Positions 1-50,775 of a stretch of DNA of 64,000 nt are shown piece by piece. Position 1 is the stretch's first letter. Each line of letters starts with the position of its first letter. The notes under the pieces are model-generated. The model had not been told where the DNA came from. It was given only the letters and a program-made list of their open reading frames with translations, and did no database searches. The translations under genes were made by a program, and so were the position numbers. The stretch comes from Bryoerythrophyllum caledonicum (lineage: Eukaryota > Streptophyta > Bryopsida > Pottiales > Pottiaceae), in the NCBI GenBank assembly GCA_963971425.1, contig OZ020523.1, positions 23,913,105 to 23,977,104 on the forward strand. The letters are read 5' to 3'.

Positions 1-388
1 ACTAAAACAAATCTCACTGCCTAATGGAACACACATCATGAACAATGAAGAGTTTAAAACATACCACTTCACCCCATCAAAACTAATCAAAAGCGCACTG
101 AAAATAGCAAGACAACTCTTTTGCCACCCAATATATCCCCCCCCCACACACTAATAATAACAACACACATACATACTCCCATACACTTAAAAACCCATTC
201 ATCACTATAAACAATGACATCACCCCAAGAAATACCCCCCACCACAGACTCATCCTCCTAACTCCTACCCAAGCCACCCTTGCCCCCCAAATTACATCCT
301 CAAAAATCCCACCACGTACCCCATAGACACCATCATACACCACGAACATAGAGAAAAAATAGATTACAACCTAATTGAAAACAAATAC

Positions 389-1315
389 GTGAGATATTTA
401 TGCCAATGGAACCACAATAACAACAAATACAACAAATGGCTCCCCCAAAGAAACCTCTTCCCAAGACACAACCAAAACACCATTACACACGACATCAATA
501 AACTCACACAATATTACCAAAAAACTCAACATAAATTCTACTCCGAAATTATCCTCGCTCACCACCCACAAAGCCAACCCCAAGATACAAGATCCGTCAC
601 CCCACCCATAAGAATCCCCCTACTAAACATTAATACAATGGAATGTAACCCCGAAAAAGACATTATCACCTCATCTAATACGATTAAAATAGACAAAGAC
701 CAAGCACACCTATACAAAGAAGATGGAAGACACCTCTTCACCATCCCCATCACTAGGCTCATATGGTTATGGAACCAATATAACACTAAACTACAAAATC
801 CTACGAGCATTGAACCTATAACTCAATCATTCGAAACCGAAATAATTTGGCTATACCAAAGGTATAAATATAAAATACCAAAAAATAACCCCCTTAAACT
901 TACACAATATACACTACCGACACCGATACTAAACTCATTAATTTCAACATTCAACATCCAACACTCATACTTCTTCTCTCCAGTCACATGCCCCACCACA
1001 CTTAATAAATTTTATTCCCCATTCGAAAGAGATAAAATATTCGGCTCATTAGGAAAAGCCTTTGACTACAAATGGATAGGTAATGGTATGGCCCACCCAC
1101 ACAATGAAGAAGAAACACAACAAGCTCTACATTGGGCCCGCCTCGCTGCCAAACATGACCCAAACTACACCTCCACCGTAATCATAACCCCAGACAAAAA
1201 TTGGTACCAAAATCATAACCCACACTCGGGCCCCTTTCCTGATACACACATCATCACAATATTCGAAGCGGATTCAATAACATATGAAGAACCCACCATC
1301 CGACTAGATCTATAA
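389..1315 (+). pseudogene. PCIF1/CAPAM-like adenine-N6 methyltransferase domain of the retroelement
   Basis: An open frame of 308 codons. The C-terminal ~130 residues resemble the PCIF1 methyltransferase core, which in animals makes m6Am at mRNA caps. A segment on SPVTC and LNKFYSPF corresponds to the 'SPLN..F' stretch of PCIF1. It is followed by the motif FGSLGKAFDY and then AHPHN, where PCIF1 has its catalytic NPPF. A hydrophobic strand TVIITPDKNWY follows, where PCIF1 has a 'FIVFIPEW' strand. The expected NPPF is therefore altered and methyltransferase activity is doubtful. The frame stops at TAA (1313-1315), but the same frame continues open straight into the RNase H region, so this looks like one long protein with a single nonsense change. 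Upstream residues are not recognised. The resemblance is by eye. Confidence 0.6.
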
Positions 1316-2008
1316 AAACCCAGAAATGAACCATCCACTCTACAAATAATATGCATCCACCACCAAAATCACACTCTAGGCACACAAGAACAACTAGAAG
1401 AACTCTCCTCCATAGCAAAGACTCTAAACATACACCGGATACTCACGAAATTGGCCCCACCAACGCCAATGCAAACACCCGTCAACAAAAGCAAAAAATG
1501 GTCAAAACTACACTACAATAACAATACACTAAACTACACCTTAACACCCCCACCCCTCCCGCAGTATCAAACTAACACCCCACCTAAATTTAACCCCGAA
1601 TATAGCTACTATACTGATGGCTCCTTCAAACCGCCAAAACAAATTAGCACGGGATCTTGGCGCAGAGAAAAAGCTGGTTATGGAATATACAACGCTACGA
1701 AAGAAATCAAACTAGCCAAAAGACTACATGGACTGCAAAACATCCTCAGAGCAGAACTTATGGCCATCCACAAAACACTAGAAATCGTCTCAACAAAATA
1801 CAACAATGAACCGGTGCACATATTTACAGATTGCATTAACGCACTATATTTACTAAACACCCAAATAACACATCCTACCCTCCATAATAGTCACCTCGAC
1901 CGAATCATACTAGAATCAATGGTCCAAATGATACTAAAAAGAGAACAAACCACAACCCTCCACAAAGTCCGAGCCCATGCTAATATTGATGGCAACGAAC
2001 AAGCGTAG
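1316..2008 (+). pseudogene. RNase H domain of the retroelement
   Basis: In the same frame as the block before it. It has the RNase H catalytic set: YYTDGSF (first Asp), ILRAELMAI (Glu), HIFTDCINAL (second Asp) and RAHANIDGNEQA, after which the last Asp is expected. Instead of that Asp the frame meets TAG-TAA (2006-2011). The next residues of the expected protein (KLAKEGREK) are read in the +1 frame at about 2010, so a small indel has broken the protein here. RNase H removes the RNA strand after reverse transcription, and this form is typical of LINE-class elements. Confidence 0.8.
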
Positions 2009-3071
2009 TAAACTTGCAAAAGAAGGAAGAGAAAAATCTCATAAAAATGTCAAAGACCCACATGAACACGCCCACGCCACCCCTTACTATTTCCAAAAAG
2101 AAGATTGGCCCTCCAAAGAAGACACTCTCGATAAAGGCCCGGTTAGATTCCTGAGCAAATACCTCAAAAAACAAGACCTACATAACAATCTTGACACAAT
2201 CACAGACAACTTCCCTAACATAGAAAAGTGGATCAACAACAATGACATAGACAATGAACTCTCTACAAATTTTTGGAAAAACCCCATCGTCACCGATTCA
2301 CAAATAACATGCCTTATCAAATTCCGTACCGGTCAATACATGGGAAACGCCCGTAAACAACTCTTCTTTGGAATAGAAAGATTTCCATCCATAACATGGC
2401 CCATATGCCCCTCAACGGACCCCAACACATGGCTACATGTTCTACTCAAATGCCAAAACCACCACATACACTCCCTAATTGTTAAAAGACATAACAAAGC
2501 GGTATGGGAAGTCCGAAAACTAATCACCTCCTACAATAAATCGAGATGTTTTATACTAATGAACGCCGGCACTTTCAGTAACAATCCACAAGAAAATACG
2601 GTCCTCCCGTGGCTACTCCCATGCTCATGTACGACCCAAAGATGTCATTGCAACGCTAGGCTCAAACCGGACATCCTTTGTGTCAAAGGTTTACCATACA
2701 ATGACCCACCACCCAATAACGTCAACCAAGACTACACCATTCAATTCATTGAATTCACATATTGCAACGATAGATTTTCCCCGGAAACAATCCAAAACAA
2801 AATAGACAAATACCAACCCCTTATTGACGACATCATCGCCCTCGGATGGAATGTCGACCCCCTTATGGTAATCACATCCGGCGCTCGGGCCACCACCTTC
2901 ATCCCATCTATGAAAACTCTAGAAGACACCTTCAAGATACCCATTGAAACAATTAAAACATCCTTTAAAAACATTAACACCATAGCTATCCAACATGCCA
3001 TGTCCATTCTTCTACATAAACGCAAAATCGAAAACAACCAAGCCTTCCCCGATATACATGACCCCCCCTAA
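1977..3071 (+). pseudogene. C-terminal zinc-knuckle and endonuclease-like region of the retroelement
   Basis: A continuation of the element's protein after the frameshift near 2005. It contains two Cys/His-rich clusters (CPSTDPNTWLHVLLKCQNHH and CSCTTQRCHC). A PD...EFT pattern follows: LKPDILC, then FIEFTYCNDRF, then K and KY spaced downstream. That spacing resembles the PD-(D/E)xK restriction-like endonuclease at the C-terminus of R2-type LINEs, which nicks the target to prime reverse transcription. The first part of this frame (1977-2010) is only an overlap of the preceding block. It ends at TAA, 3069-3071. The nuclease call is pattern-based and not certain. Confidence 0.55.
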
Positions 3072-20404: not shown

Positions 20405-20945
20405 CTGAGATAGGTTATTGGACTTTCATGTGTCAAAATAAAAAGAATTGTTACTTCAATGAGATGACATGAGCAATATTCATTTGTGGATGTCATAGTA
20501 AGTGATTCATTCAACGGTTAATAAAGAGAGTATTCATTAATACCTAGATGATTGGTAAAAATGTATACAAGAGTTTTTATATATTAAATTAAAATTATAT
20601 ATATATATAGATATATATATAGATAGATGGTTTTTGAATGAAAGATTGAGGTTCTATCTCTTACTTTGCAGGGTGACTTTTTCACATTAATACTGCCTAA
20701 AAATCACTTAAAATGGGTGTCAAAATAGAAGAATGGATTGGTGAGAGGTTTTTACTTTATAGAAACAAACAACTACATCTAAGAAGAATATTGTGTTTGG
20801 TCAGTGAAGTGAATCATTATGAATTACAACTTCAAATGTTCATCTTTTACAGATTCCGTTAGTTAATTTTCATATATTTTATTTATTGAAGCAATAACAT
20901 AAAATGTTTCGATATAAATACCAACGATCTATGAAAACCTTAAAC
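20405..20945. other. AT-rich spacer with a (TA)n tract
   Basis: Bases about 20590-20632 are TA/GATA simple sequence. Nothing else was recognised. Confidence 0.5.
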
Positions 20946-21090
20946 TACCGGGTGATGGTAAGAGTTATCCAACTTCTCCAAATGGAGTGGTTTAGGGTTC
21001 AAGTCCCCGTTGAGGTATGCTGGCTCTATCTAGCGGAACTGTCGGAAGTTCCTAACAAAACAATTCGGTTGACAGTAAAAAAAAAACACA
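20946..21090 (+). mobile_element. tRNA-derived SINE-like element
   Basis: An A-box-like TGGTAAGAG (20956-20964) and a canonical B box GGTTCAAGTCC (20996-21006) are spaced as in a tRNA-type Pol III promoter. The body does not fold as a complete tRNA and ends in A10 (21077-21087) after a short unique tail. This is the layout of a SINE. Target duplications were not identified. Confidence 0.6.
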
Positions 21091-21189
21091 AATTAACTAA
21101 TACCTACAATCTTGTAGTTGGAGTATGGACACCACATCAGCTATCTAGATATGTATAGAGTATTAAAAGATCCGTCCTGACGCATATCA

Positions 21190-24100
21190 TCATGCAAGTT
21201 CTGCAATATTAGCAAGCTCTAGTATACGTATAACTTCATTGAAGCTGTAGCTTGGGGCATGCATGATCAGGTCCTTTTTGTAGTCCAGTTTACACAAGTA
21301 ACGTAAGATGTAGTACACATGCTTACAATATTTCCATTGCCCCTTCTTTCCCAACGCCTCTACTGACATCTTCAAGAAATCTGGGCACGTACATGCGGGG
21401 TAGTCCGTGATGGTCACGCAATACGACTTCTCCTTCTCCATTTCAAGAGTGATAACGCATCCAAATCCCGGATAAGGTATTGCAGTGACATTTGAAACGT
21501 AGCACTGATTCATGAGAGCAGCGCTTGACCACTTGTTTCTATGCTAGACGGAAGGCTCGTCATTTGTCCTGCGAATCTTTAAGCCATTCCGGAAGGTATG
21601 ATAAGAATCCGGATTCTCTGGAATTGGGAAGTGGGAACGCAGAAGAGGCATGTTCAAAGACACTTGAAATTGTCTTCGAGGCGATAGTGTCCCACGTTGC
21701 TCCAACTGAAAACCTGCTTCCTCCAGCGATAAAACCTCTTGCATTGTCAAATTAGTGCCCAGCTTCACCGGCCACGTCATTGGAATCACTGGCCAATCAA
21801 CCACGTTACATTTCTTTGATCCCTTCACACACCGACCAAGATCATCAGCACAAAACCAAAACTCAACGGTGATGCTTCGTGGTGATCTGAATTCTTTTTT
21901 CCTACCGATATACGTCGGGGCTGGAGTTCCATGGATCCCACGCCCTACTTTCGCGCCACACTTCTCAGCAGTCCCGGCCTGCAATGCTTGGCATTGTCTT
22001 TTAGAGTTCTTCGGAAGGCGAGCAATGTGCCATTTCGACGGATCACACTCTGATTCTTGCACTGATGTTGTGTGTCGAACTCCGGAATCTTGTCCACTTA
22101 ACGCCTCCTCGATCCGCGCACGAGTCACCCTCGTGCCATCCCGTGGAATAGAGTAGTTTACCGTATCAGACCGGTGAGAGTCGTTACTGGATCCGGGTGG
22201 CATGTCAAGCTTACGCTTAGTAGATCCAAAGATCTCAGCGCCTTCAAATCCGTCAGTTCTTGTCAATAAGTCTTCCGCCCCTGGAAAACTCTTGACAGCT
22301 TCTGCTATGAGTCTAGGATCACCAGAACGTTGTGCAGATCGCAATCGAAGCGTACTTTTGTCTGGACCTTTACCTGATGTGCCTCCTTTTAACCATGCTC
22401 GGTAAGTAGTGATTTGCATAAAAGCGCGGATGAGGTCATCCACTGTAGCCGCGTATAAACACGTCATCGTGTTGCCGGATTGTTGGAGCCAACGATTGTG
22501 GACAGTCTCCGCAAGGTTGCAGGATGGCATGTCAGCTCTTTCGTCAAGCGTAAGGTCCTACAAAGGCAAATCAAAATGCATTTTAGGAGATTCATCATAG
22601 ATATACTCATTAATAAGATAATCCAAAAGGTAAACGAAAGAGGACTTACAAGCTGCATTGCGCCACCCCATTGTCTATAACGAAAGTGCCAAAACGCCAT
22701 CCAGTCTTCAAGGGCACGATGCCCGCTGTCAGTAGTGGCGCCAGATGAAATCCACCACCCTCGGATCACGTTGTATTGAGCTTCAGCCTCTTCCTGTGAT
22801 TTGGCATTCTTCCATATCTTGCAAAGTGCAATGTGTTGATCTTGAAAGGCAGGGAGAATACTCTTCGTGGTGGCTCGGTGAAGGCACTTTGTCCAATGAA
22901 ATAAACAAGTTCGCTCCCTGTTTTCCAAAGGCACGTCTTTGTCGCCATTTCCATACACCCTCCGTACAGCATGCCAATCAGCTCCTGCGCTATCAGCCAT
23001 GAATCCTTTGAAGTTCGTGTCTTCTACTCCGTGCTTCTTCATTGTATTGTTCAGGTTCTCCCAGAAAAGCTGTTGTGCTTCGGCATCCTCCGATTGCATA
23101 TCACACATGGCTATTGTCATGACTCTACAATATTTGCTGTCGTACACGTGACATGCCATTGTAGTCCAGTCTTTGACCCGCTTCACATGATCAAACATCA
23201 ACCAACAATCTTGGAGGTCTCCACCAGGTTGCATCCGTTTGACAAGGTCAACACCACTACCAGGACGATCGACGGACATTTTAAAAACAAATACCTTACC
23301 TTTAGATTGGCCGGGGAACTTGTTTTCGTGGATGAAGACAAACTTTGATGACTCATTTAAATCCATGATGTTGTCCATAACTCCCTTCCCTCCACTGTAG
23401 AAGCGTTTGCATGACGATACCAGATTCCGGATGTTTGGAGATGAGAGTGTCTCGAACTGGTCTAGGACAGCATCCATAGATGCTCCTTCAAGGTTTGATG
23501 ATCCTGATCCGGGACGGATCAAGTAATCGGAAAGGTAACTCTTACTCCCAGCCATGATGATCGCAGAATTTGTAGCCTTCGGTGTGCGCTGTACTTCCTT
23601 TGCGACGCACTCATGCATCAAGTCCATCGCAGTTTGGTCAACACCCAATGAGATCGGGTGATGGTGATGTCCAAGATGAATGGCAAGTCGGGTGCGCTCC
23701 GAGTCGGGAGAGGTCACATAATATATGCGTGCATCACATAGCGCCAAACAAATGGGAGGGGTTTGGCACACTTTACAAGTTAAGGTTGACTTCCCTAATG
23801 GTGCGCCATTTACAGGAAAAGGAGAGATGGCAAGTCCGGCCCACTCAGTCTGATTCGTGCGACCGTCGTTTCTACATCTATAGTCACAACTGACGTTAGG
23901 GCATTGAAGATGTCCAGTACATGTTGATTTTCGGTATGTGAGACCGAAATCGTTCATAATATTGGTCGTCATAGTCCTGCACCACATATGACCATCGTAC
24001 TGTTTGCTCATTCCGTCGAGCCCCCCTCCGAATTGAGTTGGGATACCTTCTGGAAGAGGTGGTAGTTCAAATATCATGTCTCCATTGTATTGTGGAGGAA

Positions 24101-24755
24101 GATACTTCACACGAGAAATTTCAATACTATCAAAATTAGCGCGTGACAACTCAGACCGAGATCCCTTTCTAGAACAAGTCTCGCGGACGTATGGGATGAT
24201 ACTTCTGCGACCCTTGGACATAGTATGGATAGGAGGCTTCCCGGAAGAAATAGAAGGGGACATCTGAGATCTACTTGCAATTGGAATTAATACAGGCTGA
24301 TGGTCCGTGTCTTGTGACTTGGAGGGAAACGATGACTCTCCCAAGTTTACATTAGAGTCATCGTCATCGTCAGTGTCACTAAGAAACTGTACGCTTGGAT
24401 TAGATTGTCTGCTAATACCGGGCAAAAGTACTGTATCACCTGATTGGGATGGCACAGTCGTGACGCCACACGAGGCATGCGTAGACATTTGAGCATCTGA
24501 GACACCATACACCTTGAAGGAACCACGACATAGATTCCACACAAATCCATTGTCATCGCGGAATTTCACATGGTATATGGAATGCAGAAGACTTCCCGAA
24601 CTATCAAATATCTCCTGTTCGACATGAACTGTTCCAACCCTAAGACCAAAGCGAATACAAAGCACTGCCTCAGGGACATTAACACTGCCATCCTCACCTA
24701 GGGACATGACAAGCGGAACACCGCCACAGTGAGACGTGAGAGACGCCATAAACAC
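21190..24755 (-). pseudogene. MULE-type transposase with SWIM finger, one intron, one in-frame stop
   Basis: Exon 1 is 24755-22650 and exon 2 starts at 22557. The 92-bp intron (22558-22649) has GT-AG ends and keeps phase 0. Order: an N-terminal region, a Cys/His zinc-binding part (LQCPNVSCDYRC to HLGHHHHPI, residues ~280-385), then the MULE DDE core (MFDHVKRVKDWTTMACHV, FKGFMADSAGADWHAV, CLFHWTKCLHRA). After a basic linker comes a SWIM finger, CTCPDFLK...YCKH. The reading frame is continuous except for one TAG at 21544-21546 that cuts off the SWIM finger. SWIM-bearing MULE/FAR1 proteins are transposases or derived regulators. No terminal inverted repeats were found nearby. One substitution (for example CAG to TAG) would explain the break. 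Confidence 0.8.
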
Positions 24756-25352
24756 AAACTTAAAGCAACAACAAAGTTAGATCGACTATGAAAGATGAGA
24801 GATGTAGAATTGAATGAGAGTTAAATACTTTGTCCAATTGACGAAATAGAGAGAAGGGAGTTACTTTACTACGACGGAATATTGCATTCTTAGTATGCCA
24901 GAACGACTTGCCTACAATCTGACACGTCTTGATTGAACAGGACAAAGTAGAAACCAATCTTAAGGTCATAATTAGAGTCATCAATTATCATTGTAATATT
25001 ACTAGCTGTATCCCCTAAGCCACCTTGTTAGCTTAAAGTAATATATTCTCCGATGTTGTCGTTATTCACTTAAGATGAACGATAAATCCAATTAAGTGCA
25101 ATTCTTGTGGCTGATGAAGCAATTAATAGAGATGCTATAGCCGCTTTAAACTTCTAGATTGAAATTCAAATTAAGGCTGACAACAATGGAGAAATTAGTT
25201 AGAGATCATGGGCCATCTCGTTGGCAAGTCCTTGAAATAGAAAAATAGCTCCAAGTAGGTCTAGTTGAGGTACAACCCTCTCTTGCCATATCATAGCAGC
25301 CTCAATCTTGTAATCATGTTCATTTTGACGCAACCAGGACGACTTGTAGAGG
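24756..25352. other. intergenic spacer
   Basis: Divergent from the transposase and upstream of the ParB-like gene. It is AT-rich, and no clear promoter motif was fixed. Confidence 0.4.
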
Positions 25353-28300
25353 ATGACAAGCAAGGGTGGCCGGAAGAGAAGAACAGCACACAATTCAAAT
25401 CCGAAGCCCGGGAGTGCCCCAACGCAGCGACAACAACACAAGGCTTTGGTTTCAGAGGAGAGTCGTGAGGACCAGTCATCTGAGGGGCCCGTGCGATTCA
25501 GAAATTTGTCAAGTATACTGCAAACAGAAGAGGCGCCTCATTGTACTATCGGAGTAAGTGCTTTATATTCATTTGATAAGTTAGTATTCAATATTGCAAT
25601 CTTGTACCGGTCATACTCTAATTCATGTTTGCATAGTCGTCCAGCTATTTGATGCCACTGCGTAGAGATAGGGGGGAAGAAGAGTCTATACAAGTTATCA
25701 TGACGAGTGATTTCACGGGACCTAATGCATCAATAAGCTCGATGCATGGGGGTAAGGGTGCAAACGATGTTGGTGACAACCATGAGTGTCAAAGCATGGA
25801 CTCAAGTATGAACCCAAAGAGCCGAGCAATTTCGTCACGATCCGCAAGAAATAGGAATAGGTCCTCGTCTAGGGCAACCAATGGTAGACCAAAGACCGAT
25901 CGAGGAAGCGTGGTGGATAGTGGGCCAATACAGTTGGGTGCGGAGCGGGCCCGAATGACACAGGTACGTTATATTCGAAAGATTTAACAATGTGCATCAT
26001 AACCATGGTTTCATATTAATCTCAATGTATCTCTTACTTTATTGTGCGTTGTGGTTACTACACAAAAGGTAGTTTGATCCTAATATTAATCTTTCTGGAT
26101 ATTGACCAATACAATATAAGCAAGTTTTAGGGCATGAGCATCACCTTTTAGAGCAGCGTGAGAACCTCGTCTTGGTTTCTAACTTGCGCTCGAGCCCTTG
26201 CAACTGTGAGGATTCTCTTTACACCCCTACCACATACCATAAACTTCGTCAAAACCCTATTCGAATGTTTTTTCGTATACCTGCTGATGTGCTCTACTAG
26301 TGAATGATTTTTTTCGAGCTACAGTTTGAGCACTGCTGTTGTAGAGTTGTTCTTGGACATTAGGAATTGATTGAGACGAATTTGAAAGTGGAATTGATTG
26401 AGACGATTTGAAAGAAGCGGAATTGCTTTGACTTGCAGGCTGGAGGTGGTGAGAACGGAGAAGGGAGTGGACAGACTCACGACGAACAGGAGCTGCATAG
26501 GCAAGCAAGACAGGTAAATATGAGACTTCTTGAGCGGACTCGTTTCATTTCGAAGTTACTTTATGGTCTGCCCCGTCTCTCCTTTTCAAGTACAGTACTA
26601 ATGTTTGTATGTCCAAACCCTAGTCCTTCTCGAATAACCCAACACCCATATCGTATGTTTTATGTCTGTAAACCCTGATCTAGTGAGCGATTGTTATTTC
26701 GATTTAGTAATACCTAAATGCTTGTGACTTCTTCAGGTTGGCGCTTCAGGGAGTCGTGCCGATGTTGGGTTCTCCAGCTTTGACTCTGACGTAATCGTTG
26801 GCGACAAGAACCGGGGAGCACTAGTTGTGAGTTACTTTCCTACTCGGAAATGAATCCATGGTGCCTGAATTTCTGGTTTTTAAAAATTACACTCATTCAA
26901 TGTTCAACGGCGTTTTTGGATTCTGAAATGTTTGATTACTGTACGAATCAGTTGAGAGAAGTCGCCTCACGTTTTCTCGTCGCTTTATCATGAGTTGTTT
27001 CGTGATTCAAAATTCCGGCCGGGGAACGGAAATCAGTTTTAGAGGTCTCCTTGGGTCCCTCGGATCCGAGGGACTGCTTAAGTGCAGAATTCTGCATTTT
27101 GATTTTTCCTCGACCTTTGTTTTTTCGAGTAGATGCATTACTCATATTTGTTTCTTTTTCAAAATGTCAATCGATTTTTAGAAGCTTGTGTAGACTCTGA
27201 AATGTGGTTTAAGTATGTGTATTAAGGTGCCTCGGATCCGAGGCTCAAGTTTGCAAGTTGCTTTTGCATGAAAATTCTTTTGTTTTGGATGACTTAGCAA
27301 CGAAGGAAAATTAGAGTTTGAGGGAACCTCGCGTCCCTCGGATCCGAGGGACTCATTGCTTGCAGAGTAATGAACTATGTTTTTTCGTCCACACGAACTC
27401 AACATTAAATTTGCCTGATTTCTTGGTGTAAAAGTTATATACACATTCCATGTTGAGTGCGTAACTGTTTTCTGAATCTTGGTTTAAGTTGATGTTCAAG
27501 GTGCCTCGAATCCAAGACTTCGGTTATAACGGAGCTTATGCATGATTTGAGTTCTAGTCAGAATTCGATAATGCTGGGAATGGAGTTTAGAATTAGTGGA
27601 GGCCTCGGGTCCTTCGGATCCGAGGTACTGTTTGATCGAAAATGTTTCAAGTTTGTTTTTTTAGATGTAAGGATTCCTCTTTGCTTTTGCCTAAATTTAA
27701 GGTGTTTGAATTCTAGCAAATTCGATGTTCAGTGGCTTGTGTAAACTCTGGAATGGGGGATTCAAAATTGAATGAGTATGCCTCGGATTCAAGTTACACG
27801 TTTTCACGTCGCCTATTCGTGGAAAATGATTTGATACGAATGACCTTGCCGAAAAACCAGTTCAGATTTTTAGTGAGCCTCAAGTCCCTCGGATCCGAGG
27901 GACTGTTCGAGTGTAGATGAGTGAAGTATGTTCTTTCGTTGATCGCAGGTTTTCTTTAGCTGAAGCATGACATCAATCTGTTATTTGTTTTAGTTTCATT
28001 CGGTGTTTAGTGGCATGTGAGGATTATGAAATGTGATTTTTGTAAATAAACAAAGGTTCCTTGGATCCTATGATCTTGATTTCTCGTCGCTTATTCATTA
28101 TAATAGATATACATTCGAATGAAACTTCAAAAATGGACATCTTAGTTTCAGGTCTCCTCGGGTCCCTCGGATCCGAGGGACTGATAGGCAGCAGAAATAT
28201 GATGTATATGTCATTGTTGGTCCAAGTCTCAAGTATTCACGTCGCATATACACGATATTGATAATGACTCGAACGATCTAGCTAAGACTGGAAATAAGAA

Positions 28301-31300
28301 TTTAAGGGAGCCTCGGGTCCCTCGGATCCAAGGGACTGATTGCATGCTGATTTCTGCAGTATAGTTTTTCGTCGACGAGGATTCTTTGTTTCTATGGCCT
28401 GACTTCATCGTGTGTTTTTTAAAAACTTAATCGATTATTTGTGGTGTTATTTGATTTGGAAAAGTGGTTTAGGTTAATCAACGGAGGTGCTTCGGATCTG
28501 AGCTTAACGATTTCTCGTCGCTTTTGCATGATATAAATATTGAACTGAATGTGATATTCGGGCTTGGAGTTCAGATTTAGGGAGTACGTTGGGTTTCTCG
28601 GATCCGAGGGATGGTTTGAGAGCAAATTTCTGTACTCTGTTCTTTGGTCGACAATCACTCTTCTTCACATGAACCTGACTTCACCTGTGTTTTATTTCTG
28701 TTATCTCGATGATAAAAAGGCAAGTGCAGATTGTGGAATATGGTTTGAGTGTATGTTCAATGGTGCCTCGGATCCGAGGCTCTTGATTTCTCTTCGCATA
28801 TACATGATATATAATTTAGGATTGAATGAATTGGCCGAGATAGGAAATCAAAGTTATAGGGAGCCTTGCCTGCCTCGGATCCGAGGGACTTATTCACAAG
28901 CTGAAGTCTGGAGATAGTTTTTGTTGACGTGGATAATAAATTGCAGAAGCCTTACTTAAAAGATCATGGTTCAAATGTTCATTCTCTTATTTTAGAACGC
29001 ATGCGTTGTATTGTGGCTTGTGTGGAAGCCGAATTATGGTTTCGGCGCTTCTATGACTGTGCCTCGGATCCGAGGCATGCTTGTACTGGTCATTTTTAAT
29101 GTTTAGAATTTGAGGTACTTTTGTTATGACGATTCTATTTGTTTTGAGTTACAAGGAGCAAAGGGACTGATGGCGTGATGATTGCCTCGGGAATCATCTT
29201 TGCCGAATCCAGATACTGTATCGACAAATACTGTATCGACACAGATTTGTGGCGTCGCTGTTTTTAAAATTCGATATATAAATGAATGTACTTGCCTCAA
29301 ATCCGAGGAAAGTGATTGCTGGTCTTGTTTGAATGAACCGAATTCAAGAGTCGATTATAGAAACATACTGGAATCTTTTGAACCAAGGAAAGTGATTGCT
29401 GGTCTTGTTTGAATGAACCGAATTGAAGAATCGATTATAGAAACATACTGGAATCTTTTGAACCACTGGTTAGTGCATGTAGTCTGATGCATGCTGGATG
29501 CTTGTGCATGCTTGTTGCTTGCTTGAATCTCTGTTGTGTCGACCTCGAGAACTGGATGCTTGTTCGTGCTTGTTTGTGCTTCTTCGTGCATGTTGCCTGC
29601 TTGAATGATTTAAAGTCGAATGAGCTTCGTTTAAGCCAGTCGACGTCTTTGAGGCATGTTTTATGTATTTCTAGTCACGCTGCTACTGAAGACATGGGTT
29701 GTTCTTACATGTTGCATGCTGGATGCTTGTTCGTGCTTGTTGCTTGCTTGAATCTCTGTTGTGTCGACCTGGACAGTTGGATGCTTGTTCGTGCTTGTTG
29801 CTTGCTTGAATGACCAAAAGTCGAATGAGCTTCGTTTAAGTCAGTCGATGTCTTTGAGGCATGTTTTAAGTATTTCTGGTTCCGCTGCTACTTCAAACAT
29901 GGATTCGTCTTACATTTGTATAGCTTGTATATGCTTCTTACATGCTGGAGGATTTGTTATAAGCTTATATCAAGTTGCACTCTTCCAGGATTGTTTACTT
30001 CGTTACATATGTTGGATTTTTGAAAAGCTTCAATTTCATGCTCCCGGATGTTACTGATAATATTTTTCAATGCATGACTGAAGATGGCGACACCGCATGG
30101 TGACAAGGTCACGGCCACTGTGGACTTGGAGATGCCGAGTGTGGACACAACTTCGGCTTCTGAAGCTTTGGGATCTCTTCCAGCGGATTTGAGTTTAGTC
30201 GTGCAAGTTGTACCGGCGATGGGGGTGGATCCTGGTTTGGACTTAACAGAGCTCTCATTGAGGAAATCCATTCGAGGGACTTCCTATGATGTGCTCCAGA
30301 AGTCTCATTCTCCATCTATTGGAGAGTTGCACATCCCACTCTGCCGAATGTTGCCAATGACGGAGGTGCGTATTCCAGTCAAACCGGATATAGAGAAGTT
30401 GAAGAGCGAGTTTGTCAAAGGGTACCGCCCAGGATCTGCATGTTTTTATGTCGCATTGAAAGACTTTTCCATGGCCGAACGGGAAGTTCTGCCTGAGGAG
30501 CGTGCGGGATGGTCAGACCTTTGGCGGGCGGAGGATCAGAAGTTCGAAGCATTGATTGCAAGTAGGGCTGAGTTACAATGCCTTTCTGATCGTTATTTTT
30601 TTGTGTGGGATGGCAACCACCGCCATCTTGCATGGATGGATGTCATATCCACCATGCATAGGAACGATTCTGTCTTTCATATTCCAGTCCGGGCAGTTTT
30701 ATTGGAGCCTACATTGGGGAACCGCCATATATTATTAAACGCCATGACGGATTGGAACAAGTGAGTTATTTTCTTGATTTCCTTTTATTGTTTTGTTATT
30801 TTACATTTCTTTGTATATTTATGGATATTTTGGTATGACTTTGGATTTCATGTACGTTGTCTTACAGGCAGAAAGACTCCGACCATGTGACACAACAACT
30901 GTCACATGATGTGAAGAGAGTTCAGCATTTTGGGTTGTTGGACTTCGATCAGCTCAAGGGTCTAATTAGTGAGGAGGATCACGATGCTAGTGTGGCGGAG
31001 TGGGCTAGAAAGGGTACCAAAAAGTGGTACCATATGACCTTTGATTCATTCTTGAAATTACTATATGAGGTATGTTGGAATTAAATTTGGTCCATGTTTG
31101 TGTACTCTAACCTATTATATGTGGCACATAATACGTGTATGATATGTTATTGTATATTTTTTTAAATTAGACTAATACTCCCTTATTTGATTTCTTCTTG
31201 TAGAGGGAGCTTATTGCAGCTCAAGAAGATTGTATTCGAACTTACCGTGACACACTTGTGACCGGTGTTGGGGCTGATCGTGTTGGGAGCTCGGCGGAGT

Positions 31301-34147
31301 TGGTCACTCTATGCTCCGAAGCGGTGCACAAGAAGAAGACTCAATGTGGCACCTTACTCACACGACTTCTTGCCATTGCTGACCCTCGTAATGGTGAAGA
31401 GTTTTTCAAAGAGGTATTTATTTGTTCAATTCATTGTACTCGTTCATTCAATATCATTCAATGATTTTATTGTATTTATTGACCATTTCTCTGTTATCCT
31501 TTGATTCAGGTTCTTCATCATTACGATGTTTATCAGAACAAGCCGGAAATCACATCAGAGAAGCTGCAACTGCTTTGTACTTCCAAGGTTTCTGCGAGGT
31601 TCAAAGGTAGATGGATGCGTTGGTGGAATTTGTCGAAGGAGGGAAGGGATGAATACAATTTCCCAAAAGCACCATGTTCGGAGATCAGCCTTAAACCGTG
31701 GCTTGACGTGGCTTCATTTTGGGCAGGGGTAAGTGCCTTTTTCTTTAATCCAATTATGTTTCTTTTTTGCATTTCTTGTAAGTTATGTTTTGTAACATTT
31801 TGTTTTCATTGTACAGCTTGAAGAGGAGGCAGAGAAGTTATTTGCCAAGGTTGTGAAAGAAGACAATATCACCATTAGAATGGAAGGTCTCCCGAATCCG
31901 GTATTGGATATTGGCTCATGGATTGAGGCCAACTCTCCCACGTTCTGGAAGAAGGCGTTCAAGAACCATTTCAGTGGGACAAAGCCGTTCGTGAAGTCTG
32001 ATGAGTTTCTCAAGCAGCCAGAGACACCTCAAAGTGTCAAGAGAGTGGTGCTCCGATATTTTTGGCGAGAGCTCGTTGCCAACGGAGCTTTGCAGCCTCG
32101 GGAGTTGCCAATCCGGTTGAGGAAGTGGTGAGATACCACAGTCAGCGTTGAGTGCATCTTCACAGAGTCTCAGCTGCGCCGTTTTACTCGGCATCATTTG
32201 GCTCAGTGTCCTTGGTACTTGGAGCTTTGGCATTCAACTCCGACTCCAGGTGACGAGGTGGAGCTTCGGGAGTCATGTGATGCCTTGGCTCAACATTCTG
32301 GCGCGGGTCCAGCTTTGCAGGCTTCAGCTCCATTTCAGATTGAGCCTGACCTTGAGCTCTCTGAAAAGGCAAAGGAGAGGGCTAAACAGAAGGCGGCCAA
32401 GATTGCAGCCAGAGGAGCAGAGCGAGAAGCGTCCCGTTTGGAGAAGGAGACTAGAAGAAAGGAGAAGAAAGAGACTCGAGTAAGGAACAAGGAATTGGCA
32501 GCTCTAGTGGCGAAGGAGGGGCCCGAGAAATTGTTGTCTGCTGTGGGTCTTGGTTTGTTCTCACAGCCGGCACCTATATTGGCAACATTTGGCGCTTCTC
32601 CATCCGCCAGCAGCCGCCCAGGAGCATTCGTTGCAAAACCAGCGCAGACTATCTATTCGATTCCTGTAGTGGAGCAGTCAGAGTCCACTGTAGCTGTTGA
32701 GGTAATGAATACCAGCGCCTACTCTATCTTTACTGACTATGATTCAGTTACAGCTGAGGATGACGTTCCGCCAGTTTGGAGGGATATAGCACAATGGTTG
32801 ATGGCCCATGGCGGATCCAAGTCGCGGTACATGAAGGGGGAGTTGACTGAGGATGGTTTGGCGGATATGTTCATATTTGACGTCCCGGAGGACTTGCCAG
32901 TTCCAGGCATTCAGGGTGGTACCGTGATTCCACCATGGAACACACTACCTACAGTGCCGACCCCCAAGGGACGGAAGGAATCACTGTGGATTCGGTTTAA
33001 CTTCGAGTTGGCAGAGTCGTTTCTTCGTGATGGAGGAGCTATCATCGTGTTTTATCCAGATTCCAGGTTCATTTCAAATGAACTAGTTTCCTGGGCTCAG
33101 TGGTCAGGATTCGACGAAGAGGCGAAGTGGTTCGCCATCAATGGACTTCCCCTCTTCTCTGATGGTCGTCCGGGCCGCGTACACAAGACTTTCATGGTCA
33201 AGTGCTTCGTTCGGAAGAGGGATCCTCCAATTCCATTTGTCTTCAATGACAGAGTGGAGCTTCTGGCGGATGGGATTGAGCTTTCTTCAGACGGTCATCT
33301 GACCAATTACATCACCCAGGAGTCACTGACAGTGAGGGCCTCCACTGGGATGCCATGGCGAGGAGCCAGAGAGAAGTCGCAGAATCTTTTGGAGGCTCTT
33401 ATTGATCTTTGCACCAAGGAAGATGAGATTGTCATGGACCTCACCGCTTCTACTGGTATATTCATTTCATATTTCCATTTTGTTTTTTGATTATCCAACC
33501 ATGATTCTAATTTCTTATTAGTTGTATTCCATACTATTTCCAGGTGCATCTATCAAGGCTTGCAAAGCCCTCAAGCGTCATATTCTTGCCTTGGAGGTAG
33601 ACAAGGACTTAGTAGATGAGGTGCTTCGATCCATGATTCCACAGACGGTGGAGGTCAATTCTGCGATTGTTGAGCCTATGGAACAGACTTCTCTCAAGCG
33701 CCCTTTGGAGCTTGGTGATGACGAACCAGAGATTAAGACTGCGCCTAAGAGAACTTGTAAGTAAGTTCTCTTCATTCATTTGTTGTTTTTGTTATCTTAA
33801 TCTTTCATCCTTTTGTTCTAATGTAAATCAATTGCAGACGGTTCTCGACGTCGTTGATGGCTTCTCTGTCAACACCTCCCGTTGGAGTGCTGGCTCGCTT
33901 GGCAGGGAAGGTAGTCAGTCCGGTACAGCCGCATATTTTGCCTGAGTATGCTGAAGCTGCTGCCATTGCATCTGTAGCGCAGCCGTCGCCTCCACGATGT
34001 CCACGGACTGCTCGATCCGGCTCTGGAGCGAAGATTTTTGTGGATGATGAAGCTGAGGAGGCTAGTACTGATTCTGATAGTGGTTCTGATAGCAGTATGC
34101 CGTTTATCCATCAGGGCAGTGACGATGAGTTCACATCTGAGGAGTAG
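25353..34147 (+). CDS. ParB-like / degenerate DNA-methyltransferase-like fusion, in-frame TGA
   Basis: Eleven exons read with consistent phases: 25353-25553, 25637-25963, 26439-26513, 26737-26826, 30084-30760, 30868-31069, 31204-31413, 31510-31728, 31817-33455, 33544-33760, 33838-34147 (1389 codons). Exon 5 has a ParB/Srx-like fold: a TEVRIPV strand, then WDGNHRHLAW (the ParB GxxRxxA box), then IPVRAVLLEP. The middle is helical and Lys/Arg-rich. Exons 9-10 follow beta-class methyltransferase order: DVPEDLPVPG where DPPY should be, FLRDGGAIIVFYP, then VMDLTASTGASIKACKAL, the AdoMet motif I. The catalytic motif is thus degenerate. TGA at 32129-32131 splits exon 9 and no intron spans it. Reinitiation could make two proteins. 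The tail is acidic/serine-rich. The start and the acceptor at 30083 are the weakest points. Confidence 0.65.
26945..29310. repeat. ~277-bp tandem array with two alternating palindromes, in intron 4
   Basis: Palindrome A, GTCCCTCGGATCCGAGGGAC, is perfect at 27055, 27333, 27884 and 28162 and degenerate at 27609, 28317, 28593 and 28872. Palindrome B, GCCTCGGATCCGAGGC, is perfect at 27229, 28765 and 29060 and degenerate at 27503, 27780, 28056, 28489 and 29294. A-to-B spacing is 170-174 bp in all but the last unit and B-to-A spacing is 104-107 bp. One unit (28162-28317) has lost its B site with about 122 bp. The sequence between sites has diverged more than the sites have. Confidence 0.9.
29305..29464. 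repeat. 80-bp tandem duplication
   Basis: Two nearly identical 80-bp units, 29305-29384 and 29385-29464, immediately follow the last palindrome. Confidence 0.9.
29487..29905. repeat. ~206-bp tandem duplication
   Basis: Units of about 206 bp share GTCGAATGAGCTTCGTTTAA and TGTTGTGTCGACCT. Short GCATGCTGGATGCTTGTTCG-type motifs repeat inside. It lies in the same intron. Confidence 0.8.
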
Positions 34148-36827
34148 TGAATCCTCTATTTTGTATGTTGTATTGACCTGATATGAGGCTTTGGATTTAT
34201 GGGTATATATCACCCTTGTATGTCTTATTTGATTATCTGTTTCATCCACATAAATGTTTGTATTCTAGTTAGATAATCTAATAGATATTGAATTATCATT
34301 CACGGATGGATTTTAATCAATTTTTATAATGTGTCTTTGAATTTAGAACTATATAATTATCACATCATGAATAGTATACAAAGGTTGGAATATTTTTAGA
34401 TGGTCCATCACTATCATTCTTTCCATTCAGCACCCTAAACCTTCTTGCAGAAATTTACTTTAACCTAAACAATCATTAGAATAGTACTACATATTTGACT
34501 TATTTAGAATAGTAATACACATCCAAGAGAATTCCTCTACTGCAGTCTGCAAGTCGTAGAGTTATTCAAGCGATGTTTATCCATGGACTTAAGATATTTG
34601 CAGTAAAAGAATTTTGATAGTTGGAAAGATGAACTTCATCTCCATATTTTTAATTCTATGGTATAAGAAAATATGGGGATTATAGATGTACTTCTCCGCC
34701 ATTAGTCTTATATGAATTCGTTATTATTTAAAATAGAAGTTTGCATTGTAATATATGTTACATTATCTATTATCCGGTTACTTTTAGATGTAATTTTTCC
34801 CCAAACTTCTAATAATTGGGCCACGGCTATAGGTGCCTCTATTGAATAAACTATAAATGAAAGCGATTGCAAGTCAAGAATTTCTCTTATGTTGATTTTT
34901 TTTTTTTTTTTTGAAGCACAATCCACCTACACTCACGGCAATAGGTGTTCTTTTTAATTTCACAACAAAATTAATGGTAAAATTTGTCATGAATTCAGTG
35001 CTCGCCGCTGGCCGCTCACCGCTTACCGCTCACAAGATAGCATTCCTGATCTTGATTGTGACAAAATAAGAGTGTTGTTGTAAAAGAACCTCTATTAAGA
35101 AGACAATGCTTGACACTCACAAGTACATATAAATATAAATATAAATATAAATATAAATATAAATATAAATATATGTGTATGTATATATACTTATGTACTT
35201 ATATATATAACATCAATATATCTTGTTCAAGTCCATGATAATGTATACAAGAAACTAGTATATATAATCTATAGGTTAGATAGTAGAATTAGAAGTTGTT
35301 GAATTAGATTGTAAGGATCTTTCGACTAAGTTTAATTACAATGAAGTTCACAATAAGAATGTACTTTTATATTAATAAAATAATTTATTTAAATCAAATA
35401 ATGGATAAATGTTTTATCAATATTTAGAAAAAGATTTAAATTAAAATTCTTCTTCTTGGTAGGACTTCTATCTTTCTTTTCTCTTTTCTAGTTTTGCTAC
35501 CCTTCTATTGTGTTATGGACCTAAGTATAATTGGTAATCAATGTTGTGTACTTACAATGACCGCCAAAACAAAGTATGAAATCATCAACACTACAATTAG
35601 CCATTCATACTTTGTGATTTACTACAATAAAAGCAAATCAATTGGTGATTCAAGTTCTATCTCAAGAAATTCATGTGGCTACCTAATTACAAACCTAGCA
35701 ATGCAAGATGGATTGAGAAAGATGTGGACCAAAATACATTACTTCTAAAACTCAAATATGCTCACTTGGACTACAAAGACATGATGCAATCTAAGCTACA
35801 AAGCTGACATGTACAAGTGGTTTTTTGCTTGTAATTGAGAGCATGGGCATATTCTTGGCAGTTATACATGTAAATGTGTCCATCATCAGTACACATCATC
35901 TATGCAAACTCAACAAAATGGTTTCATTAAAGTAACTATTTGTTGTTAATAGGTAGCTAGTAGAAGTGACAACTTTGTAGAAGTTGAGGAGGAGATGAGA
36001 GTACTAGAGATGTTGTTAGTAATTTACAAGTGTCAAAGTTGGATTACATAGTTTCGTAACAATTGATATGAATCATAGTTTTGGTGGCAGGCCAAGGGTG
36101 TACAATGCAAGTGATTGAAGGGCTTGTGTGAGAAATCATTAGAGGTGGCAAGGAAACTACACATAAATTTGGAAATTACCTAGGTGAGTAGCTCTGTTGC
36201 ATCCAATTTACCTACATTGCTGGTTGAATTTGACCAAGCTCGTTTCTTACTTGATATAATATCAACGCTTGCATGATATGATTGTACTACAAACATCCAG
36301 AGCACCAACATCATAATCGAAATCCAACTCCCTGGGTCCCAACTGATCCACAAATGATAACACCAGGCACCCATTGCTTCCAGATCCACACAGCCATGAT
36401 TCCAGGCACACCATCAAGCTTCCCCAAGCACAAGTTTCCCCCAATCATGTCAAATTTGTAGAAAAAGTTCTGAATTGCAGACGTGAAGACATGTACACAG
36501 TATGGAATGAACCACAAGTGAACAACCTCCTAAGCCAATGTAGAGTACAAGAGTCAAATGAACCAGACCTATCCTAGAGTACTACCTTCGCAATGAGGCT
36601 ATCAAAGAGCTTTTGACCACTCTCCACAATGAAAAGGGTTAAGATTTCTGACAAAAACAGCATGTGTAGAGGAAGAATTTACCGGCAGATGCTAGCCTCA
36701 AGGTAAGATTGGCCTGTACAACTCCTCAAAGCCAGTTTCTGAATCAATTGCTGGTTCCATCTACGAGCCCCTGATCCTTTGTAATGACATCCAGCAGCTC
36801 AGTATCCGTCACCAACTCGCAAAAAGA
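34148..36827. other. AT-rich spacer between genes
   Basis: No supported gene. It contains a T18 tract near 34895, a CCGCTCA-like repeat at about 35004-35032 and the hexanucleotide tract listed separately. Confidence 0.5.
35126..35172. repeat. (ATATAA)n microsatellite
   Basis: About eight uninterrupted ATATAA units. Confidence 0.9.

Positions 36828-49198: not shown

Positions 49199-50775
<1,577 letters not shown>

Follow-up and report, generated by a model that had tools for sequence, protein, structure and literature searches.

A 64,000-nucleotide stretch of the genome of the moss Bryoerythrophyllum caledonicum (contig OZ020523.1, here C11:23913105-23977104; the whole stretch is called the window) carries an array of palindromes in a long intron of a gene, gene2, that belongs to a transposon and not to the host. 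From its sequence features we assign the element to the Mutator-like DNA transposons. The array is general to these elements, and its palindromic core is common to different families and to another genome. It likely works as a protein-docking array, as far as sequence can tell, and with somewhat more confidence than doubt we read it as a cluster of sites for a dimeric, most likely element-encoded protein that would serve anti-silencing or control, by analogy with VANC of the VANDAL elements. A first-pass annotation, made from the letters of this stretch, had noticed the array; it missed that the intron-bearing gene is a transposon gene and saw the array less widely than it occurs. The easy misreading of an 'intronic regulatory array' as part of a host gene is corrected here. 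The genome searched comprises 437 Mb in 894 contigs, which are labeled C1, C2 and so on. It contains LEAFY-family matches at seven places, and a segment of the best one agrees with chain 4bhk_A (LEAFY homolog 1, the Physcomitrella protein) at 62 of 65 aligned residues (E 2e-38), ahead of the Arabidopsis LEAFY structure 2vy1 (E 1e-24), in line with a moss host.

Eight A palindromes and seven B palindromes alternate between positions 27055 and 29077 of the window (Table 1). The fixed spacing reported in the first-pass annotation is confirmed for complete units (A to B ~172 bp, B to A ~106 bp); one shortened unit, from 28172 to 28327, measures 155 bp and is without a B site. Alternating A and B palindromes are indeed present at this place, but their perfection had been overstated: four of the eight A sites are perfect over at least 20 bp and three of the seven B sites over at least 16 bp. 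The claim that the sites stay constant while the spacers drift holds for A: among the eight aligned units the mean pairwise column identity is 0.90 within the 20-bp palindrome, which ranks second of 212 windows, and 0.52 elsewhere. For B the claim has less support, the seven aligned units giving 0.73 within 14 bp and 0.54 elsewhere (rank 9 of 147). The intron contains 16 sites within three mismatches of the 12-bp core CTCGGATCCGAG. Across 17 array regions, some of which are related copies, 173 such sites were counted, where mononucleotide shuffles predict 9.2. Further 3' in the same intron (29306-29915), an 80-bp unit is present twice at 97% identity, together with 205-225-bp repeats at 81-92%.

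The location of the array in an intron, as first proposed, is backed by comparative splice signals, which place exons u1-u3 5' of the array. The array intron joins u3 to e1 from phase 0 to phase 0. In the sixth copy of u3 (L010), the acceptor and the donor are both shifted by a few bases. The first gene model, in which the array lay between two divergent genes, is ruled out by the same splice signals. Coding constraint, expressed as the ratio of nonsynonymous to synonymous substitution rates (dN/dS), is moderate for u1-u3 (0.20-0.84, computable in 10 of 11 comparisons) and clearer for e1 and e5 (0.06-0.59, computable in five of nine). Matches to e1 were found by tblastn in L007-L011, L013-L017, L019, L021, L022, L036, L061, L062 and L063.

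The limits of the element were identified by comparison of copies. Two complete copies measure 14.5 kb (C12:1908912-1923443) and 14.4 kb (C2:9268868-9283275), and both, when read at their two ends, are flanked by target duplications of 10 bp, GTATCACCTT and CTCCTAAAAG respectively. Target site duplications of Mutator-like elements (MULEs) are given as 8-11 bp in the available text of a published account (PMC6446971). The terminal inverted repeats are CAGGAATGCTATCTTGTGAGCGG and CAGCGACGCTATCTTGTGAGCGG, short relative to those of many MULEs, and the exact inner end GCTATCTTGTGAGCGGTGAGCGG has 132 and 122 occurrences in the genome, compared with none for the reversed control. Similarity of the window copy to C12 ends at 35048/35049, and its left limit is 20874 against both C2 and C12 in the sampled slices. 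Beyond this position C2, C12 and L009 continue jointly up to the inverted end, which shows that the left end is missing from the window copy. A search with 1173 bases of array DNA found copies on C12 (99%), C2 (94%) and C855 (94%) and an older one on C3 (74%), with 28 matches in all when weaker pieces elsewhere are included. The 277-bp unit is therefore no satellite found everywhere in the genome, a possibility raised in the first-pass annotation; it is the palindrome that is dispersed, with its 12-bp core at 1281 places in the genome versus eight for the reversed control.

A transposase-like gene lies next to gene2 on the opposite strand. MULE transposases are marked by the motifs D, D, CxxH and E and a SWIM domain. 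Inspection by eye reveals a GCM-like Cys cluster, the residues D, D, CxxH and E, and a SWIM-like CxC..CxH motif. The Pfam model Transposase_mut scores below its cut-off of 21 (10.7 bits, E 0.24), and no other relevant Pfam match to this gene was found. The first D is kept in all four copies covering the position, and the second D and CxxH are kept in L016. L013 keeps the second D and has a stop at the Cys, the motifs are decayed in L007 and L009, and the E is kept in neither of two copies. We call the element Mutator-like on the basis of its target duplications, its ends and these transposase motifs.

The association of core and element was examined genome-wide. The exact 20-bp A palindrome occurs 144 times, versus none for the control. 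Among the matches listed, 15 of 18 A clusters have an exact inverted end, likewise among those listed, no more than 12 kb away, and one of the three remaining clusters is the complete C2 element, which has variant ends. All three end-to-end pairs among those listed on C1 enclose cores. Eighteen loci on C1 were selected because they bear the core; 14 of them have a gene2 match, and the cores lie 5' of e1 in all 13 loci that have e1. Two elements, L061 and L062, were picked by their ends alone and then read, and both carry arrays with a period of 274-277 bp at the same place. Their unit consensuses are 0.42 (window-L061), 0.48 (window-L062) and 0.52 (L061-L062) identical, compared with a baseline of 0.39-0.41 from three pairs with an L023 unit in the wrong orientation.

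Nine families, grouped by us according to their flanks, have the core in common. Their spacers align little above background, and the spacing of the arrays ranges from 127 to 375 bp, so spacing is not the kept feature. The family consensus is a dyad, GNNYCTCGGATCCGAGRNNC, that is free at positions ±8 and ±9 and near-fixed at ±7 and ±10. Across the nine families, -10 is G in nine and +10 is C in eight, ±7 agree in eight, and -9 and -8 in five and six, respectively. These outer positions (±7 to 10) played no part in the selection of sites. Free inner and fixed outer positions suggest a dyad read by a dimeric protein, and argue for a protein-bound site over an RNA hairpin. Another dispersed motif, GGATCCTACGATGAGGATCC, recurs with its complement among the 43 matches to GGATCC-N8-GGATCC and was noted at four loci (e.g. 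C1:12701220).

The core also occurs outside this genome. A search of bacterial and archaeal genomes with e1 returned one relative, L063, which was thus found through the gene2 protein alone and not through the core. Its protein is 51-68% identical over seven exons. Four sites ~107 bp apart lie directly 5' of the ATG exon, three with exact cores and one decayed. Two of the exact cores sit within perfect 30-bp palindromes (16-45 and 338-367), which are distinguished from each other by a single compensated pair in the arms. Between these two, at 130, stands a mosaic copy that resembles the product of templated arm correction of near-palindromes. The arm sequence GGGTCTCGGATCCGAGACCC has no match in the moss genome, where the nearest gene2 DNA is 71% identical. 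The contig is filed under a Synechococcales metagenome bin, that is to say a cyanobacterial one; since this moss-like transposon gene has introns, contamination by eukaryotic DNA is the most probable source.

Comparison with the older C3 copy points to constraint on the A sites, which differ at 18 of 143 positions versus 542 of 2029 in the spacers (p 1e-4), in an alignment that is uncertain between tandem units. Several results weigh against our interpretation. The B sites diverge from C3 like the spacers (31/112). No significant difference between A and B sites together and the spacers was found against C2 (11/272 versus 221/3279, p 0.096) or C12 (3/272 versus 17/1918, p 0.73). Such a null is as expected of recent copies that decay neutrally, yet it provides no support; we read both comparisons as a sign that the active lineage was constrained and that its copies then decayed neutrally. 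Most sites were selected by core positions ±1 to 6, a choice that in part produces the constancy of these positions; it does not affect L061, L062 and L063. In L061 and L062 the palindrome stands out modestly from the rest (0.95 versus 0.84, rank 18/262, and 0.93 versus 0.82, rank 8/261). In four of the 18 C1 loci (L005, L006, L012 and L018) a single core is present but gene2 has no match, and L020 has a distant e6 match alone, with cores that are not 5' of it. Finally, no exact CTCGGATCCGAG lies within 12 kb of any of the four C1 loci (5815784, 7223534, 10148395 and 19180447) that could be checked in the L063-like group of gene2. These loci may contain a variant, another palindrome or no palindrome at all, a point of direct consequence for the model.

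The C-terminal part of gene2 resembles a DNA methylase. Spliced e6 and e7 match N6_N4_Mtase (PF01555) with 30.2 bits (cut-off 26.7, E 5.3e-7); three of three spliced members match, while unspliced e6 gives no match to this family. The same exons match the DpnA methylase in the PDB (5hfj, E 1.5e-4), phage methylases and, weakly, CcrM (NF050803). It is the S-adenosylmethionine (AdoMet) motif region of gene2 that resembles bacterial beta-class N4/N6 adenine/cytosine methylases. The match differs from these enzymes in starting past the first 36 profile positions and in the catalytic motif, which is of the DPPY type in N4/N6 methylases. No such motif is present at the expected place in three aligned copies and L063; FDVPE is conserved there instead. 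Methylation activity is therefore doubtful, and the protein may bind DNA rather than methylate it. The N-terminal exon e1 has no Pfam or NCBIfam match in six of six members. Viral contigs contained no gene2 relatives and no core pairs 92-122 bp apart, and a plasmid search with the methylase part yielded two weak records.

Table 1. Coordinates of the transposon copy, its genes and the palindrome array in the window
Feature	Position	Strand	Remarks
Mutator-like transposon copy	20874..35048	no strand	leftmost ~0.4 kb including left inverted end missing; matched by C2 and C12 in sampled slices
Transposase-like gene	21193..24776	-	frames 22467-24776, 21547-22557, 21193-21543
gene2 exon u1	25652..25984	+	approximate ends; reading frame kept in other copies, dN/dS 0.43-0.84, n=4 comparisons
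gene2 exon u2	26427..26513	+	start approximate; splice donor CAG|gtaaat
gene2 exon u3, phase 0	26737..26826	+	acceptor cag|GTTGG at aligned base in 5/6 copies; GT donor in 5/6
Intron with palindrome array, ~3.26 kb	26827..30083	+	GT donor after u3; AG|ATG of next exon in 9/10 copies
Palindrome A	27055..27074	no strand	centre ~27065; perfect, 20 bp
Palindrome B	27229..27244	no strand	centre ~27237; perfect, 16 bp
Palindrome A	27333..27352	no strand	centre ~27343; perfect, 20 bp
Palindrome B	27503..27518	no strand	centre ~27511; decayed
Palindrome A	27609..27628	no strand	centre ~27619; imperfect
Palindrome B	27780..27795	no strand	centre ~27788; decayed
Palindrome A	27883..27904	no strand	centre ~27894; perfect, 22 bp
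Palindrome B	28058..28073	no strand	centre ~28066; decayed
Palindrome A	28162..28181	no strand	centre ~28172; perfect, 20 bp
Palindrome A	28317..28336	no strand	centre ~28327; 1 mismatch
Palindrome B	28489..28504	no strand	centre ~28497; decayed
Palindrome A	28593..28612	no strand	centre ~28603; perfection limited to inner 12 bp
Palindrome B	28765..28780	no strand	centre ~28773; perfect, 16 bp
Palindrome A	28870..28889	no strand	centre ~28880; inner 14 bp perfect
Palindrome B	29060..29077	no strand	centre ~29069; perfect, 18 bp
gene2 exon e1	30084..30761	+	ATG at 30084, end approximate; tblastn
gene2 exons e2-e5	30839..32128	+	approximate ends
gene2 exon e6, first part of methylase-like domain	32132..33457	+	
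gene2 exon e7, remaining methylase-like domain	33522..33764	+	approximate ends
gene2 exon e8	33830..34147	+	approximate
gene2-side terminal inverted repeat CAGGAATGCTATCTTGTGAGCGG	35026..35048	-	comparison of copies

Outside the element, positions 218-3071 of the plus strand hold open frames resembling a long interspersed nuclear element (LINE), with an RNase H match (PF00075, E 2e-10). The frame at 218-1315 matches PCIF1_WW (PF12237, E 2e-11), and related pieces of this LINE-like stretch occur in L006, L007, L009 and L011. An AAAG microsatellite of ~242 perfect tandem copies (970 bp) is located at 49543-50512.

Among the explanations for the array, a cluster of putative dimer-binding sites, one of the two readings offered in the first-pass annotation, fits best. 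The binding protein could instead come from the host, as a transcription factor or chromatin protein whose sites serve the element as an enhancer or insulator. We consider this unlikely, though it deserves weight: a stable host reader would explain why the core does not vary between families although the remainder of the intron does, and why L063 from another genome has the same core. The targets of VANC-type proteins, moreover, are described as changing between related elements in the accessible parts of two studies (PMC5735166, PMC10398659). Against a host reader, most of the sites listed lie within these elements and are not spread over the genome. We know of no host factor with such a 20-bp dyad, though no search was aimed at one. 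RNA hairpins in the intron transcript, acting in splicing control or as a source of small RNA, were the other first-pass proposal, and very little now speaks for them. The sites do lie in an intron in transcribed orientation, and the palindromes of L063 reach 30 bp, with the compensated pair that a hairpin would favor. However, among 147 core substitutions in the 173 sites, read in gene2 orientation, C>T changes (51) balance G>A changes (48), without strand asymmetry and without the excess of C>T that a tolerance of G-U pairs would permit. This symmetry suggests DNA-level decay at methylated cytosines, unlike a G-U-tolerant hairpin. Four of the nine family consensuses keep an uncomplementary pair at ±8, at ±10 it is the sequence that is kept and not merely the pairing, and Rfam has no match at gathering scores in the whole window.

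The array might also have no function, if palindromes were mutationally favored through template-switch correction or repeat expansion and then spread by conversion and transposition. The recent copies without extra constraint and the second L063 copy, which mixes the arms of copies 1 and 3 as templated arm correction would, agree with this improbable account. Correction matches arms to each other, but it would not hold one 12-bp core across families with different spacers and another genome, nor fix ±10 while ±8 stays unpaired. Conversion within the array, which the first-pass annotation had suggested for the constancy of the sites, likewise cannot as the sole cause give one core across families and another organism. 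It is hardly credible that the palindromes are parS- or iteron-like sites, of the partition or replication type, for a ParB-like N-terminal domain of gene2. The resemblance is a short one, between YFFVWDGNHRHLA in e1 and the DG-x-R-x-x-A stretch of ParB. Profile searches gave no Pfam or NCBIfam match, ParB_N included, in any of six gene2 members, and hhalign returned a probability of 0.4% (E 0.17) versus 93.9% for a ParB-ParB control. Two structure models were unusable, with a predicted local distance difference test score (pLDDT) of 31.8 and 35.2; the 19 Foldseek matches of the second at E ≤ 10, none of them ≤ 0.001, are meaningless given so poor a model (pLDDT 35). The ParB/parS reading was rejected, as neither profiles, hhalign with its positive control nor structure models added support to the motif resemblance.

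Retention of one short binding motif in otherwise different tandem repeats is known from CENP-B box satellites. The moss arrays share this trait and differ in being short, inside a transposon intron and not centromeric. The closest likeness is to the VANDAL MULEs of Arabidopsis. In the element VANDAL21, one report describes VANC21 as binding YAGTATTAY in tandem repeats, which lie in the VANC21 and VANB21 introns and in the region upstream of VANA21, and as removing methylation (PMC5735166). As far as that report and a second one (PMC10398659) describe them, these elements resemble the moss element in combining a transposase with a further gene, and in having short motifs in fast-evolving noncoding tandem repeats, introns included, dense inside the element. 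The moss motif differs from these descriptions in being a long dyad, not YAGTATTAY, and in having a core that is constant across families whereas VANC targets change. The second gene differs as well, with an N4/N6 methylase-like domain and no other family match. Pieces of gene2 match N6_N4_Mtase alone or nothing, and thus no VANC-family protein, in family searches that included no direct VANC sequence comparison. The resemblance to VANDAL/VANC is one of anatomy, seen here in sequence alone, and we claim no membership. DNA transposons of fungi that carry TET/JBP dioxygenases also add a gene for a DNA-modifying enzyme, of another class and in another host, and the available text on them mentions no palindrome array (PMC12730594). 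A literature search, judged by titles and abstract openings and outside preprints and most subscription journals, found no description of the moss array; six papers contain one of the core strings.

In the favored explanation, a dimeric protein would read the dyad GNNYCTCGGATCCGAGRNNC, the candidates being the product of gene2, which includes the methylase-like domain, or alternatively the transposase. With many sites crowded into a short piece of noncoding DNA, the element would be marked as the protein's own target, and the bound protein would counter silencing or control the genes of the element, as VANC does on the tandem-repeat motifs of VANDAL. We infer protein binding, the identity of the binding protein and the anti-silencing or autoregulatory effect from the anatomy described above. 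A bolder version, possible yet on balance doubtful as a whole, holds that a captured bacterial-type methylase became a self-recognition factor, either with its degenerate motif or through real GGATCC-directed modification, and has its target dyads in its own intron. As part of the same proposal, the dyads would have stayed constant across moss lineages while their surroundings were replaced, forming an epigenetic self-tag that has no sequence relationship with VANC.

A sequence-specific recognition system of its own is known for few transposons. If the favored explanation is true, a moss case in which the dyad is constant, natural arrays number in the hundreds and the candidate protein is unrelated would mean that self-targeting in the style of VANDAL arose more than once. 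The dyad would then be a clean probe for the reader protein, and the escape of such elements from silencing would be directly testable in a laboratory moss.

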